64,000 nucleotides of DNA from Apostichopus japonicus (lineage: Eukaryota > Echinodermata > Holothuroidea > Aspidochirotida > Stichopodidae): the NCBI RefSeq assembly GCF_037975245.1, contig NC_092583.1:2847264-2911263 (forward strand). The letters run 5' to 3'. The position numbers were made by a program, and so were the translations under genes. The notes beneath the pieces were generated by a model, which saw only the letters and a list, made by a program, of their open reading frames with translations, had not been told where the DNA came from and did not search any database. This document shows positions 4,401 to 13,400 of this stretch, piece by piece. The first letter of the stretch is position 1. Every line of letters starts with the position of its first letter.

Positions 4401-7400
4401 AAGTTGAAGACTAATGACGGAACAGCAAAGTGACTTTGACGGCTTACTTTTTTATCATAGCCAGGAGACGGTCCTGATCAATGTCCTCAAGGCTCTTCGA
4501 TTTGTATATTCGCTCTGTATTCTTGAATAACGTTCCAGTTCCTAAAAGGAGAGAGAGAGACAGACAAACAGACAGCATCATATCGGTATCATGATACATG
4601 TAAAACTGGCATTTATATTTTGTGAGAAAAGATATTACAGTTTGAGAGAGTCAATATATGGACCAGTTCGAAGAGCTGATGTGCTATCATAAAATCGGGG
4701 ATAACAGTAGTCAAACTTGAATAGTTAATTATCCATCCAGTTGGGACAACTTTTCTTCTATTTGGTAAATTCATGCCATGCTTGAAGGAACTTGTACGGC
4801 CAGTTAGAACTGGCATTTATATTTTGTGAGAAAAGATATTACAGTTTGAGAGAGTTAATATATGGCCAGTTTGTAGAGCTGATGTGCTATCATTAGATCG
4901 GGGATGACAGTAGTCAAACTTGAATAATTAATTATCCATCCAGTTGGGACAACTTTTCTTCTATTTTGTCAATTCATGCCATGCTTGAAGGAACTTGTAC
5001 GGCCAGTTAGAATAATATGGATATCATGTTTCTATCAGATACGGCAGGTTAGGAGCTGTTCATACTGACAGCTTCCCTTTAACACTGTGAACAATACAAC
5101 TTTCAGTATCGTATGAGAAACAAATTCATGAAACTTCAAACTGCAATACAAAGATGTGAACACTTAATTGTCCCCCTGTCAATGACCTACTATATTATGT
5201 TCATAAAACTGAAAAGTAGCATTTTTGCCACCTTGCACCGTTATGACAAAGCTTTACATAAATATTTGCACATAATTGCTCACACTGACGGGTAATTTCT
5301 AAAATAAGAGATCTCCATAGTTACAACTGTACGGCTGCTCCTTATTGGCTAGTTATTAACTGTTTTAGTCCAAGAAGAACAGATTTATATCCCATCAAAT
5401 TGAAGGAAAAGTTCATAAGCTTTGGTTAGCCTCTGAAGAATATCCTGCTGGGATTGAAATGTCAGGCTTTCTATATTTTATTAATATACCTCCAAGGGCT
5501 TTTTGCAGTAGATTAGCAGTTTGCTAACCTTTTTTTACCTCTTTTGAAGTTCCTAACTGTTTTCATCATTGGTGGGATTTTAGGTAGACTAAAGTACCAA
5601 GTCATATTTTCAGGTAAATTTAATATCATTTTTTTAAGGGCTAGAAAATGGTACCTCTATACTGTTGAAAATAACTTATTTCATCCTTCCTGGTAAACCT
5701 TTAGGTAGACCAAAGCTTTTTTTCCCCTTTGAAGTTCCTAACTTTTTTCATCGTTGGTGGGATTTTAGGTAGACTAAAGTATCAAATCATATTTTCAGGT
5801 ACATTTAATATGATTTTTTTTGAGGGGTGGAATATGGTACCTCTCTACACTCTACGTTATCTGAATCAATTTTCAATTCAATCAATTTCTTTATTCCAGT
5901 ATAAATTACAAAATTTATAAATAGGACACATAATAATGATACACAAAAGACCTAAAACATAAAATCATGAAAACATGAAAGTTGGCAAGATAGTAGGATT
6001 TCGTAGATTGTACTTGTTGGTTCTATTGCACAGAGAGATCAACTCAGAGTGAAGTGGGAGATCTTTAGAACTATGTATATTCTTAGCTAGTCTTATGAAT
6101 GCATCAGTGCATTAAGAGATGCACATGTTTCCTCCCAGGCAATTTGACTTTTTAAGACATAAATAAATTATTTCAGAGCCTCTTTACTTCAATTATGACA
6201 TCATCATGAGCATCCATGTCCCCAGGCACTATTACTGTTGCTGAATTATTCCTACCCTTAGGCAAATACTCAATTGTTTTTCAAAGTCACGATTCTTTTG
6301 ACTGAGTATAAGAGTCTGCCAGTGTATGTAGGGAATTGCGATCAGACAAAATTCTGTGCTTCTATTGCAAAGGGTGGAATGCACATACATGTGTCATTGA
6401 GAAGACACAATGTTATATCTGAGTATAGGTTGAATATTCCTTGAACAGCCAATTTACTTTCTCATAACCACCAAAGAGTTCTGACAAAAAAAACTTCATC
6501 CAACCTACCAAATTCTGGTAATATCTTTACATTGAAGTACTGTTTGAAACCTTGGCACCAAATTTAGTGTCTTCTATAACATCATGGAGGATTTTTTTTC
6601 CTCAGAGAAATGGGATTCTGACATTCAGATACTAGGCAATAATTGATATTGTATCGTAGGATAGAAAAAAATCCAAAAGAAAGTGTTAATTGCTATACAA
6701 TTACAAAGATGTAAAGCAGTTTTTGTACAGACATATCTAGTATAATTTGTAGTATTTTATAGCAAAGAGAGATTCATAAATCTGAAAACTGGTAAACAAA
6801 ATGTCTTTACCTGGTAAAATAATTTCCCTCTATATATATTCAATTTTAATAATTTTGGGGGTATACTCTCATCTAATTATGGTAAGTTCAGAATTATCAC
6901 ATGGTTTAGCTGGGCCACAATCAAAGTATTAACCAACCTATCCTACATACATGTAACAATTAAATACGAAATGTTGTAGTCTATCCTTGAGAAATATTTA
7001 CCATGGTGAGTGAATAATTCTGCTAGGATGGTATTTGCTGAGGTGATCACAACACTTGAAAGAGGAGGGAGGACAGCTAAGAGGGCTGAGATGGACTGCA
7101 GTTTCTCCTGATACAGGGGATCGCACCACTTTTGAGAAGAGATGGCTTCCACGTCGGCTGGGACATGAACGTGTTTCATGACCTATAAAGCAGAGGGAAA
7201 TATGCATAATGCTTATGAATAAACAAATTCTTATGAATAAACAGTACATAACGATTATGCACAACCAATAACCCACATCCCATATTATGTAGGAAGTGCT
7301 TTCCTTTTGTTTTTAAAAAATGCTTGTTCTACCAGATATACCCGCACAATTGCGATGATACCCTCACAATCGGGGTGATAATCATAAGGTGTTATCAGAC

Positions 7401-10400
7401 AATGACACTGAACTTCGTCTTATATCACAGTTGGGCATAAATTCAAGGGTATATCCATGAACGAAAGAACATACTTCATTGGCAATACATTCTTCTCAAA
7501 GAAGAACCCTTTCATTTAAATATTTGTAAGCAAAGTTGTGGATCATTGGCTGTGGACTTTCAAATAAACTGCAGAACTTTACACAGTTTACAACAGAATT
7601 GCTACAATGTATTGTCAAATACAAAGTTGTACATGTATATCATGATATAATTATAACAGTGTGTTTAACATTTACCTCATTGCCTTTTCACATGTATGAA
7701 CATTTAATTGCATTCCATTTATTTCCTTCTTTGCAACATTTCATTTATTTTTTTGTTTTCTCAAAACATTCAGATGATAATCATATAATACACATAAAGT
7801 AACAAAAATTCAAAGATTTGTGAAACGTAGTGAGCCTTTATGGCATTAATGTAACATAATGTGTCATTAACGTAAGCCTTTATGGCATTAAAGTAACCTT
7901 TATGGCATTGACGAGTAGAGCACTCCCTACACTTAACTATACTTAATACATAAACAAACAGTTTGTTTTATACCAATGAGAAGATCGGATCAAGACCAAT
8001 CCATTTTCATTTTCCAAACTCAGATTACAGTTGATCAAACTAAGAAATCCTCTCTGATCGTTTGTCTTTTTTCACCAATCCACTGTGAATTAGAAAAATG
8101 ACTATCGAACGCATTCGATCAATATAAAACATTTCGTTGCCCCGATATTTTGATATTAGCCGTAGATGCGTGAGACATAAAGATGAGCAAGATTCGATAC
8201 TACTTTTGGCTTCTATTTTTTGCAATTTCTCAATGAATAATTCAGTACTACCTGGGATAGACATCATTCTTCGTTTATAGGCACTGCCATTAGTATTCAC
8301 AACAAGAACTTCACGAGGTAGGGGGGGGGTGGCCGTTCCACTTAGTTGAGCTGTTGTAGCTAGTTAGTGTATATTTTGTTTAGACTGCATTTAACTGTTG
8401 TATATTATCAATGTTTTTTTGGTTTGTATTTCTATCATTCATTGTATCAATGTTCTTTGTATTTTGTATCATTCATGGTATTGCTCACCGCAGATATGTA
8501 ATTTCCTTCTGGGATTCAATAAAGTTGACTTACTTACTTACTTCATAACAACAAGTATCACACATACCAGACAGTCTGGGTCATTTAATAAATGCTCATA
8601 CAACTGTATATAGTGCCATCATTATCATGCTTCAAAGCACTTGTAGCGATAGTGTGAACATTTCTGACAGAAATCCACACTGCTCATGTTGTTTGTGTAG
8701 GATGTTCATTGAAATTTGAAGTGACATATATATGAAAGTACAGTTTATTATTAAACCAAAAAACCTCTCCAAATTGGATGCAAAAAGACCAAAGTTAATA
8801 TTTAAAAAAAAAAAAAACAGTATTAACACAAGTTTATAAGAAACTAGGTTTCATTCTATAGCAGCTTGCTTACTGAGATAATTTTAATGATATTGTTTCA
8901 ATGTCTTTCAAAAGATTGAAGGTCATGAGCCCGACTAACCGCTTTCATTTCAAATAATGAAGCATAACCTTTGTTTTAAAAACCCATTTCATTCATGTTA
9001 AAGGATTGCTACACGTATGTTAATTTTCAAAAGATTTAAGTTAAGTCAATAATAAACGACCAACGTAGTGATGTCGTCGTACGTAGTGAAGATAAAACTA
9101 AATGGCATTTCCGTTACGACTAAATTAAAACTGGACTTACCTTGTTACTGCCATCTAGTAACCCTCCTTTGTCATTCAACAGGAGGACTTTAATTGGTTG
9201 AACAGCTTTTGCAATTTCAATGGTTGCTTGGGAAGCATCTACACAAATGAGCTGGGAACTGGTTGTTTCACCAATAGATGATACAACTGGAATGTGGCCT
9301 GACCTGAGAAGGTAGATAGATAGAGAGAGAGAAAAAGATATGATATTAAACAGTATTAAATGCTATTAAACAGTATTAAACGCTATTAAACAGTATAAAC
9401 AGAAAACAACATTTCTTGTCGTCGCTGTTAACATTTCTTGTTTCATGAAAGCTAGGATCTCATTACCGAGTTTCTGAACACAAATAAGATACAGGAACTG
9501 TATCCTTCAGTTTGTTTCGAATGCATTTATTCAGGTCAGAAACAAGCACTTTAAGAACAGTCAATGGGTGGGAGACAGTCAATGAGTGGGAGGGGGGGGG
9601 GGTATAAAAAGAAGCTCTGGGGCTTATAAGCATAGCCCTCCATTGAAAAGGAAAGAGAAAAGAAAAGGACATAGGTCTATAACAATAGGAGGACAAACAA
9701 GAAAGAAATCAGAGAAATAACTGATTTTCATTTGCTGCATAATTTTTGTAACCGTCAAATGCTCTTAAATAAACTGTAAAAGTTTGTTCAGTTTACAACA
9801 AGAGGTGCTTCAAATCTTCCAATAACCTTTTCATTCTAATAACAAAAAATAGCATTACTAGTGTACTTCATATCATTTGTAGCAACTACCTAATCCTATT
9901 TTGCATATAAGATTCAGGGCTATTAAGATGTCAATTAATTAACTACTGAGGGAATTAACTGGCTAATTTCACCGTTTTGGATAGGGAGAAACACTTCAGA
10001 GAGTATGTAGACTCCACAGCGCAAGTAAGGTGAGTGTTTCAGAGTGAAATGATATCCCAGTACTTTGTGGTTTTGGATGTTTACAAGTGACTATAAACTT
10101 ACCTGTCTCTACCCTCCTATTTCACTTTTTCATCTACCTAAATTGGTGAACATTTCAGCACCGTTTCATCAATGTCCTCTTTTGATACACAGTGTCCAGA
10201 TGACAGCTTCTCCTGTCCCCATGTTTCATCACTATCACCTCTGATGTCACAGTATCAGGGGACATTTCTCAATACTTTATTAGTGTCCACTCAGATACAC
10301 AGTGTCCAAGGAACATTTTCCTAGGCTATCCACACATTTTATCAGTATCCCCTCTCATACATAGCATCCAGGGAAGAGCCTTCCCCTCAGTCCCCACGTT

Positions 10401-13400
10401 TTATCAATCTCCTACGACTCACTGCCAGGTCAGTGCCAACTTTCCCCTCTAACCAAATCCACCAGAACAGATTTCATACGGAAGTGAAATGTGGTTATGA
10501 AATGCAGCCATCTGCTTGAAAGAAATTTTAATTAGCAGAGAGAAGGGAAAGTCTTGCCCTAAATGATTGCGTACAGCTGGTTGACCCACTTCTTACCTAT
10601 TAACCGTAGATAATAATACACACTATAACAAAAGGCATATTGTTCTGGAGTCATCACGCTATGCAGCATACTACACAATTTAGCTTGTAATTTGATTAAC
10701 GAAGACAGCTGATCAAGCACCAATGTACTACAATCCACAACTATATGTTATGATTCAAACAACTAGGCCAGTAACTAGATCACCATAGCGACACCGTCAG
10801 GCGATCATCTTCTGCTCCTCGATTAAATACCTCAATTGAGGAAGTGTTCTGTTTGTATCAATTTGGTAAACATGATATCAACAATAATCCAAGGAGTAAA
10901 CAAGAAGATACCATTGTATGTGTGTCCATGAGAAGCAGTTATATTAGCTATTCATGTAGGTCAATACTACACACAAATACAGATAGTTAAGTCAGTTCAC
11001 AGGTTCACACTGGTATTACTCGCTCAATGCATAATGGAAAACATTCAGTGTTCACAAAGCCTTGTTACAGCTTTGGGTGTTCACATCAGCTTTTAATTGC
11101 CCACTCAACACACTTGTAAATTACCCACTCAACATACTGTCGTTTTCACGGCAGTTTGATTACCCAATCAAGAAACAATACCAAAGGTTCTGTGTTCACA
11201 TTGGAATTACTCATCCAATGCATAACGGTTAATACCCAGTATTCACATTTGGGTTGAATACTCACTCAATGCGCCATTCAATGTTCACAATGGTATTACT
11301 TATTGGATGCATTATGGAAGAGATTCAGTCTTCACATTTGGCTTAATTACTCAGTCAATGCATAAACACTAGAGGTCCAGTGTTCACACATGTTTGATTA
11401 TTCGCTGAATTTACCATGTTAGAAGTACAGTGTAGTGTTCACTTCGTCTTGATTACTCACTCAATGTACCATGTTAGAGATTCTGTGTTCACATTGGTAA
11501 TACTCACTCAATGCATAAATGCTAGAGGTCTAGTGTTCACACATGTTTGATTAGTTGCTGAATACACCATGTCAGAAGTACTGTGTAGTGTTCACATTTG
11601 GCTTAATTACTCACTCAATGCACCATGTTAGAGGTTCAGTATTCACATGGACTATCCTACCAAATTACTCACTCAATGTACCACGTCAGAGATTTTGTGT
11701 TCACATTGGTAATACTCACTCATGCATAAATGCTAGAGGTCTAGTGTTCACACATGTTTGATTATTTGCTGAATACACCATGTTAGAAGAACTGTGTAGT
11801 GTTCACATTTGGCTTAATTACTCACTCAATGCACCATGTTAGAGGTTCAGTATTCACATGGACTACCCTACCTAATTACTCACTCAATGTACCACGTCAG
11901 AGATTTTGTGTTCACATTGGTAATACTCACTCAATGCATAAATGCTTGAGGTCCAGTGTTCACACATGTTTAATTATTTGCAGAATTTACCATGTTAGAA
12001 GTACAGTGTTCACATTTGACTTAATTACTCACTCAATGCACCATGTTAGAGGTTCAGTATTCACATGGACTACCCTGCCTTTAGAAGATCCAGTGTCAGC
12101 TTCAGCTCTGAAGACGTTACTTCCAGAGAACAATGGGTGAGCCTGAGCACCACTTGCCTGAAGACAATTAACCATTGTCATAGTCTCTGTTGTTACCCTT
12201 CGTCTAGTTTCCTAATGAACAAACAAAAGGAATAAAACAAAACTTAGTTGGAGAAAACATTATAATCCATTCCATATGCAAATTAATTTTGAATAAAAAA
12301 TTGTTTGTAAACAGCAACCTTCTTAAAAGCAAAAATTACATTTGAAAACTCCACTTCCAACTTCACAACTTCATACCTGTACCAAGCTGAATTAATTATG
12401 ACAATTTTGAAAACTGGGTGGTTATGTCAACCTTTGCGTGGAATTGCCAATTGGCAAGATGAAACTGGGACGCCAAAACCCTGGTTATTTAACCTTCGGA
12501 GATGCACTTTTTGTTGAATTTTTTTAAAAATCTGATGAATATAATAACTAGCAAAGTTGCTTTGTATTCCTTGCAAGTACAAGAATCAGTACTCATACTG
12601 TACAGTTTGTGTTTACAGGCTAGCACTTGTACTCATTCAATTGTACTTGTACTTCAATGCTCAACTAAAAAAATAAACTAATTCCAATGTAAAACAGCCT
12701 TTAGTTTGGTCATTCATAGGACATTCATAGGAATAGGGTTACAACTGTATGCTGTTGTCTGTGATCCCAAATAATAAATCCTAAGGTAAAACAGCCATTA
12801 GTTTGGTCATTCATAGGGCATATATAGGAATAGGGTTACAACTGTATGCTGTTGTCTGTGATCCCAAATAATAAATCCTAAGGTAAAACAGCCATTAGTT
12901 TGGTCATTCATAGGGCATATATAGGAATAGGGTTACAACTGTATGCTGTTGTCTGTGATCCCAAATAATAAATCCTAAGGTAAAACAGCCTTTAGTTTGG
13001 TCATTCATAGGGCATATATAGGAATAGGGTTACAACTGTATGCTGTTGTCTGTGATCCCAAATAATAAATCCTAAGGTAAAACAGCCTGTAGTTTGGTCA
13101 TTCCCTTATCATCGTAATACATATTCATGAAAAGAGGGGACTGCTAGGAGTTATATGTGATGCTGTTTTGGATGAGAGACATACAGGCCTGTTGACAAAG
13201 TTAAATGGGACACAATGACATAATATTAATTTTAATTTCATAGTTGAGGCAGTTTCTAATATAGGCATGTGTGAAAATATTTTCAAATATTTTACCCAGT
13301 CAAACCCCCTTGAAATAATACCCCTATTATAGGTCTTTTAAGTTGCAGGTACTGCAGTCATAGAGAAAACTGTTAAATACAAGCTTTAATCAAACTTTGG

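Follow-up and report, generated by a model that had tools for sequence, protein, structure and literature searches.

The end of one coding exon of the NAGS gene of Apostichopus japonicus, together with its splice donor, constitutes the first unit of a tandem array that continues into the downstream intron as 23 head-to-tail units of ~51 nt (minus strand, ~12079-10985). All coordinates refer to the window, that is, the whole 64,000-nt stretch of DNA that was analysed. We consider that the array was most probably formed by local tandem duplication seeded at the exon/intron boundary, that the first donor wins by its position, and that the copied donors, or decoys, are by-products; we would assign this reading as a whole a probability of roughly 0.78. 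The original prediction had proposed that the exon end and its donor are repeated downstream in the same intron, and both the TRF periods and the matches of the boundary segment (see below) bear this out. The extent it gave for the repeat (11400-12060) proved too narrow.

The NAGS gene and the array-bearing intron

The joined translation of eight minus-strand exons matches the Pfam domains NAT (E=1.3e-47) and AA_kinase (E=1.1e-10). The order of these domains, AA_kinase followed by NAT, identifies the gene as NAGS (N-acetylglutamate synthase), a gene of the urea cycle. Among the PDB relatives of the translation are bacterial NAGS/NAGK, yeast Arg5,6 and, for the NAT domain, human NAGS (4k30). 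No second copy of NAGS was found when the assembly was searched with the protein of two exons: this search gave 4 matches (a lower bound), all of them on C23, and two of the 4 are weak matches to the exon's own intron copies. The relevant parts of the gene are as follows, a slash marking the splice junction:

29277-29185, minus strand: upstream NAGS exon, placeable
12211-12033, minus strand: putative founder exon of NAGS (exon 4 of the original prediction), 179 nt, phase 0 in, phase 2 out; acceptor TTTGTTTGTTCATTAG/GAAACT, donor TTGA/GTGAGTAAT
9304..12032, minus strand: array-bearing NAGS intron, 2,729 nt
9141..9303, minus strand: next NAGS exon, its protein ending in DGSNK; acceptor at 9303 CTACCTTCTCAG/GTCAGG, also written CTTCTCAG/GTCAGG; donor AAG/GTAAGT

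The open frame of the exon at 12211-12033 reads ETRRRV...LTWCI-E, and the exon-exon junction GA/G TCA GGC CAC ATT CCA encodes E-S-G-H-I-P.

Architecture of the array

Individual units measure 25-58 nt, and 18 of the 23 fall between 47 and 58 nt, which makes the array a minisatellite. They were cut at chosen start words from 12065, the start of the basic unit U00 on the minus strand, to 10985, so the first bases of the units are conserved by construction. TRF detected periods of 51, 153 and 211 nt, with a score of 1103 for the 211-nt array, and the boundary segment matched the two intron blocks with E values of 2.7e-88 and 4.7e-78. The first twelve units are organized as three A-B-C-D blocks:

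12015..12079, minus strand: putative founder unit A, composed of 47 nt of exon end, GTGAGT and 12 nt of intron
11873..12079, minus strand: block 1 (A-B-C-D, 207 nt), starting within the exon; decoy donors 11931 and 11884
11662..11872, minus strand: block 2 (211 nt); decoy donors 11826 (A unit), 11720 and 11673
11451..11661, minus strand: block 3 (211 nt); decoy donors 11615 (A unit), 11508 and 11461
10985..11450, minus strand: presumably older units U12-U22, with exact GTGAGT in 1/11 (donor 11266)

Blocks 1 and 2 differ at 10 of 206 positions, blocks 1 and 3 at 15 of 206, and blocks 2 and 3 at 8 of 210. The upstream edge of the blocks (GGCAGGGTAGTCCATG...) lies 47 nt inside the exon, and the basic unit takes 33 nt of it. 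Thus, the repetition of the exon end stands as first described, and the ~50 nt then given for it should be corrected to 47 nt in the 211-nt blocks and 33 nt in the basic unit.

The exon end itself recurs in the type A units (U00, U04 and U08). Type D is represented by U03, U07 and U11 and type C by U02, U06 and U10, to which U13 is related; the type B units (U01, U05, U09 and U12) are devoid of GTGAGT. Following the typed units, U14-U22 appear as older single units. U04 and U08 are 98% identical to U00. The C and D units that belong to blocks reach 76-86%, and identity is 68-70% in the B units and 60-83% in U12-U22. The full 13-residue peptide of the exon end is encoded by three of the 23 units, namely the exon's own and the two A copies whose donors lie at 11826 and 11615. 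These are the copies that had been placed near 11609 and 11819 and said to keep the coding sense: the peptide is indeed intact letter for letter, and the last exon-like bases of their donors are 11615 and 11826 instead of ~11608 and ~11818.

Such nesting suggests that the array grew in three or more stages (monomer, trimer and tetramer), the youngest of which would adjoin the exon. We also observed that U01 (12014-11965), the B unit of block 1, groups with the older U12 (11443-11389) with a support of 0.92 and does not group with the B units of blocks 2 and 3. Thus, the blocks do not represent a simple triplication, and exchange or conversion between units of the array is likely. Another observation concerns the branch-point-like word CTAAC, which occurs a short distance ahead of the donor word, intact or decayed, in 7/23 units (U00, U01, U04, U05, U08, U11 and U12), probably by chance.

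It is well known that assemblies can collapse or expand at tandem repeats, and one might ask whether the array is a false tandem expansion at this locus. We hold this to be extremely improbable, given that the copies differ by substitutions and indels arranged in an ordered hierarchy. Furthermore, if the assembly is the one of PMC10344927, it was made with HiFi long reads, and a stretch of 1.1 kb normally fits within one such read.

Nested growth of the type seen here at 51, 153 and 211 nt is shared with ordinary intronic minisatellites that have a higher-order structure. The polarity of the array is shared as well, in that the blocks resemble each other more closely at one end and the units are degenerate at the other. 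Unlike such minisatellites, however, the NAGS array has one unit that is conserved coding sequence.

The copied donors and their predicted strength

The exact word GTGAGT is present ten times on the sense strand of the array, as the real donor and as nine copies at the decoy positions listed above. Nine of the 22 units beyond U00 carry it; the authentic donor thus stands at the start of the array and is repeated along it. Across the whole intron, GTGAGT was counted 11 times (1 true, 9 in the array and 1 at 10423) versus ~1.4 expected, and of 2,000 sequences generated from the dinucleotides of the intron itself, none had more than 7, the maximum reached. A ladder of decoy 5' splice sites therefore exists, as the original prediction had it, and it is longer than stated, with nine exact GTGAGT decoys and not two.

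How strong these sites might be was estimated with a donor PWM and with U1 duplexes computed in ViennaRNA. The PWM score is 1.17 for all ten sites, and the U1 duplex energy is -7.3 kcal/mol for six of them and -7.6 kcal/mol for four, which agrees with the nearly equal strength claimed earlier for the copies. The description of the donor as strong fares worse. In a comparison of seven NAGS donors placed by homology and eye, the true donor has the lowest PWM score (1.17 vs 1.19-9.16) and ranks third in U1 energy (-7.3 kcal/mol vs -4.5 to -13.8 kcal/mol for the other six); a PWM cut-off of 3.5 reveals no site of the ladder at all, because the donor scores just 1.17. By these predictions, the true donor is moderate, and the sites of the ladder are equal to it but not strong. 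Donor-like sites (PWM >=1.17) are nevertheless crowded in the 1.1-kb array, which contains 14 of them with the true one counted (12.7 per kb), compared with 84 across the remaining 26.9 kb of this gene region (3.1 per kb).

This crowding, the near-equal predicted U1 strength of the ten sites, four of the nine decoys being slightly better than the true donor, and the last place of the true donor by PWM might all be taken to mean that the ladder is functional. The copied donors would then bind U1 and compete with the moderate true donor, so that part of the NAGS pre-mRNA would end up NMD-bound or intron-retained, or else the intron would be shielded from premature polyadenylation, and the number of copies would tune NAGS output. 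We regard this as unlikely. One feature that speaks against a functional ladder is a far better site elsewhere in this intron, beyond the limits of the array:

10097..10105, minus strand: unrelated pseudo-donor CAG/GTAAGT, last exon-like base 10103; PWM 8.58, U1 -12.1

Since this unrelated site is much better than those of the ladder, the presence of a decoy is in itself nothing unusual in the intron.

Pseudo-exons within the array were also considered and seem unlikely, as no convincing acceptor was found among its 19 YAG sites. The best pyrimidine fraction among these YAG sites, a crude measure, was 0.56 vs 0.81 for the two true acceptors.

Predicted consequence of decoy use

Splicing through any of the nine decoys is predicted to give the same frame, LTWCIE* (LTWCI-GAG-TGA). 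The in-frame TGA is the first codon after the junction and is built into the donor itself (GA/G TGA). A decoy junction would lengthen the exon by 102-767 nt, with the stop falling 98-763 nt short of its new end. With these distances, all nine decoy products are predicted to be NMD-prone according to the usual 50-55-nt rule. A protein derived from a decoy would lack both the NAT domain and the remainder of the kinase-like domain. As the stop is immediate at every decoy, no productive, full-length isoform can form via the decoy donors, and any effect of alternative donors, which the original prediction had suggested as a possibility, would be limited to the amount of mRNA or to a truncated protein.

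That all nine decoys stop at once, and far enough upstream of the exon end for NMD, is also what a functional ladder would call for. It is tempting to extend the idea to a rheostat, in which alleles carrying a greater number of copied donors would divert more NAGS pre-mRNA to the NMD-bound form via U1 competition. If true, an unstable exon-seeded minisatellite would set the output of an enzyme of nitrogen metabolism, and all of its rungs would be equivalent because of the same built-in stop. Nevertheless, we judge such a rheostat improbable, even more so than a functional ladder in general.

Conservation of the copies

On a unit tree of 19/23 units (U18, U19, U20 and U22 were dropped as too short or gappy), parsimony gave 2.0 changes per column for the donor hexamer, 1.58 for the exon-like part and 2.08 for the tail. 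No excess conservation of the hexamer was seen on this 19-unit tree, where 31 of 46 six-column windows were as low or lower. Selection on the donor copies was consequently rejected: the donor bases decay like their surroundings, which fits drift, and no trace of donors being maintained or purged was seen. The exact GTGAGT is missing from the four B units and from 10/11 older units, although U18 and U19 retain GT. Both the ordinary conservation of the donor columns and this loss of the exact word weigh against a functional ladder.

Two observations in the blocks count against the preferred reading. The exact GTGAGT is kept in 9/12 units of the three blocks. In addition, block positions 8-60, a run of 53 nt spanning the boundary, show no difference among the three blocks, and 16 substituted columns are found outside it; this would also favour a functional ladder. 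The chance of such an invariant stretch would be ~0.009 if its limits had been fixed beforehand, but in fact the stretch was chosen after seeing the data. Furthermore, no excess conservation was evident for the coding part in the intron copies: the 47 bases that stem from the exon contain two of the 16 substituted columns, and 3.7 would be expected. We read the invariant 53 nt as probable noise or local gene conversion, constraint being possible as well.

Exon first or repeat first

The NAGS exon end was very probably the founder of the array, judging from searches of the assembly and from protein homology. In the 671.6-Mb assembly, a 221-nt boundary segment gave 6 matches, all within the array, and 491 nt of the older array part gave 4 matches, all at the array locus; such match counts are lower bounds, as weak or masked copies can escape. 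With 6/6 and 4/4 matches being local, the array DNA lacks the copies elsewhere that a dispersed satellite or mobile element would have, and the exon-seeded minisatellite is apparently private to this locus.

A shorter probe, a 19-mer across the donor with <=2 mismatches allowed, gave 28 matches in the assembly, 7 in the array and 21 elsewhere, and a reversed control of the pattern gave 7 in all. The 21 non-array matches comprise one exact match, on C21, and 20 with two mismatches. Two of the 21 were inspected, and neither belongs to a NAGS-type array: the exact match on C21 is a lone 20-mer, and the one on C20 consists of two 16-nt matches 203 nt apart.

The exon end aligns gap-free through the splice junction with yeast Arg5,6 (3zzf) and with 3s6k. 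Its last 16 residues score 23 and 22 against these two relatives, which were the ones scored among the 14 listed; the shuffle means are ~-15, and 5/100,000 shuffles reach the score in each case. In the 3s7y alignment, which is also gap-free at the splice junction, a 3-residue gap falls in the copied exon part, upstream of VHV, where there is little identity. The consensus of the non-A units, built from ten groups with one vote each and with the A units and U19, U20 and U22 omitted, differs from the exon at 2/33 coding bases, one of them silent, and so encodes nearly the NAGS peptide.

The opposite order of events, in which the repeat came first and the exon end took in an intronic minisatellite by exon extension or gene conversion, should be weighed against this evidence. 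The array, which by itself shows no direction, keeps the register of the exon end, and the gap in 3s7y, one relative, lies within the copied exon part; both points would suit such a capture. On the other hand, the exon end is homologous to distant yeast and bacterial NAGS/NAGK and gap-free in two of these relatives, the unit consensus still encodes nearly the NAGS peptide, and array DNA elsewhere without NAGS, which the original prediction had named as the sign of a captured repeat, did not appear in the assembly searches. Capture of a dispersed repeat is thus disfavoured, and we consider the repeat-first order very unlikely. The exon as founder, as first proposed, is much the simplest history, because the array DNA found no match elsewhere in the assembly searches and the exon end has homologues among distant NAGS/NAGK.

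Proposed history

Taken together, we infer the following scenario of local duplication. A tandem duplication across the boundary would have initially copied a piece of ~51 nt into the intron, in which the donor was flanked by ~33 nt from the exon end and ~12 nt of intron. Further slippage or unequal exchange might have then raised the number of units to ~22, and later rounds would have copied larger blocks of ~153 nt and subsequently 211 nt, with one breakpoint of the last block copying lying 47 nt inside the exon. The nine copied donors would be by-products of this duplication. The authentic donor is expected to win, as it comes first and its exon alone has a good acceptor here. Occasional use of a decoy would result in the extra 102-767 nt, the immediate stop and NMD-prone waste, and we suppose the decoys to be neutral and nearly silent. 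Overall, we take the array to be, in all likelihood, a by-product that is neutral, and give an effect on dosage a small chance.

Other repeats at the NAGS locus

The locus harbours further repeats, which we describe here in their own right. A second minisatellite, situated at the other end of NAGS, occupies positions 1-1310 of the window, where TRF found 32 copies of a 41-nt unit, and it extends below the window start to ~C23:2846871. The last NAGS codons and the stop, GAA CCA TGG TAG (1310-1299), are the first bases of this array on the sense strand. Since the 41-nt array starts at the last codons, NAGS has two arrays that both start at a coding edge and extend downstream from it. The 11 genome matches listed for the 41-nt array all fall at its own place. 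In the preceding NAGS intron, at 12689-13103, there is a 97-nt x 4.3 array with 98% matches, and both genome matches listed for it are at its own locus. Finally, the NAGS exon with its start near 4541 is preceded, at a distance of ~60 nt, by a 203-nt tandem duplication (4604-5012, 95% matches).

Comparison with known arrays and significance

Literature searches returned no report of the NAGS array among the matches listed. The kind to which it belongs is, however, already known from human IFI6, and the NAGS array is a clean example that brings no new principle. Turri et al. reportedly showed in 1995 that the human IFI6 minisatellite provides multiple splice donors. PMC4526556 describes two downstream repeat units of human IFI6 that serve as splice donors, leading to isoforms. 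What the two loci share is a tandem array at an exon end that multiplies the 5' splice site downstream of the authentic donor. They differ in the unit, which is ~12 nt in IFI6 and which in NAGS is ~51 nt with 33-47 nt coding, grouped in 211-nt blocks. They also differ in outcome: the use of copied donors gives protein isoforms in frame in IFI6, while each of the nine copied donors in NAGS predicts an immediate stop.

Another group of relatives comes from arrays that make introns. Zhuo et al. are said to have described in 2007 the origin of introns from tandem arrays. Similarly, in human segmental duplications, tandem repeats at exon-intron boundaries may cause novel introns, according to PMC2812944. 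These cases likewise involve minisatellite expansion over an exon-intron boundary with splice signals, and the outcome described there is novel introns or longer exons. In NAGS, unlike those cases, the exon and its donor are intact, the array lies inside an existing intron, and no good acceptor was found in it.

As the unit is still coding sequence, the founding unit of a minisatellite can, on the preferred reading of local duplication from the exon end, be pointed to. The array also represents a natural test of how the spliceosome chooses among ten near-identical 5' splice sites within 770 nt, and decoy use would be readable directly as loss of function, because all but the first site are predicted to give the same truncated product.
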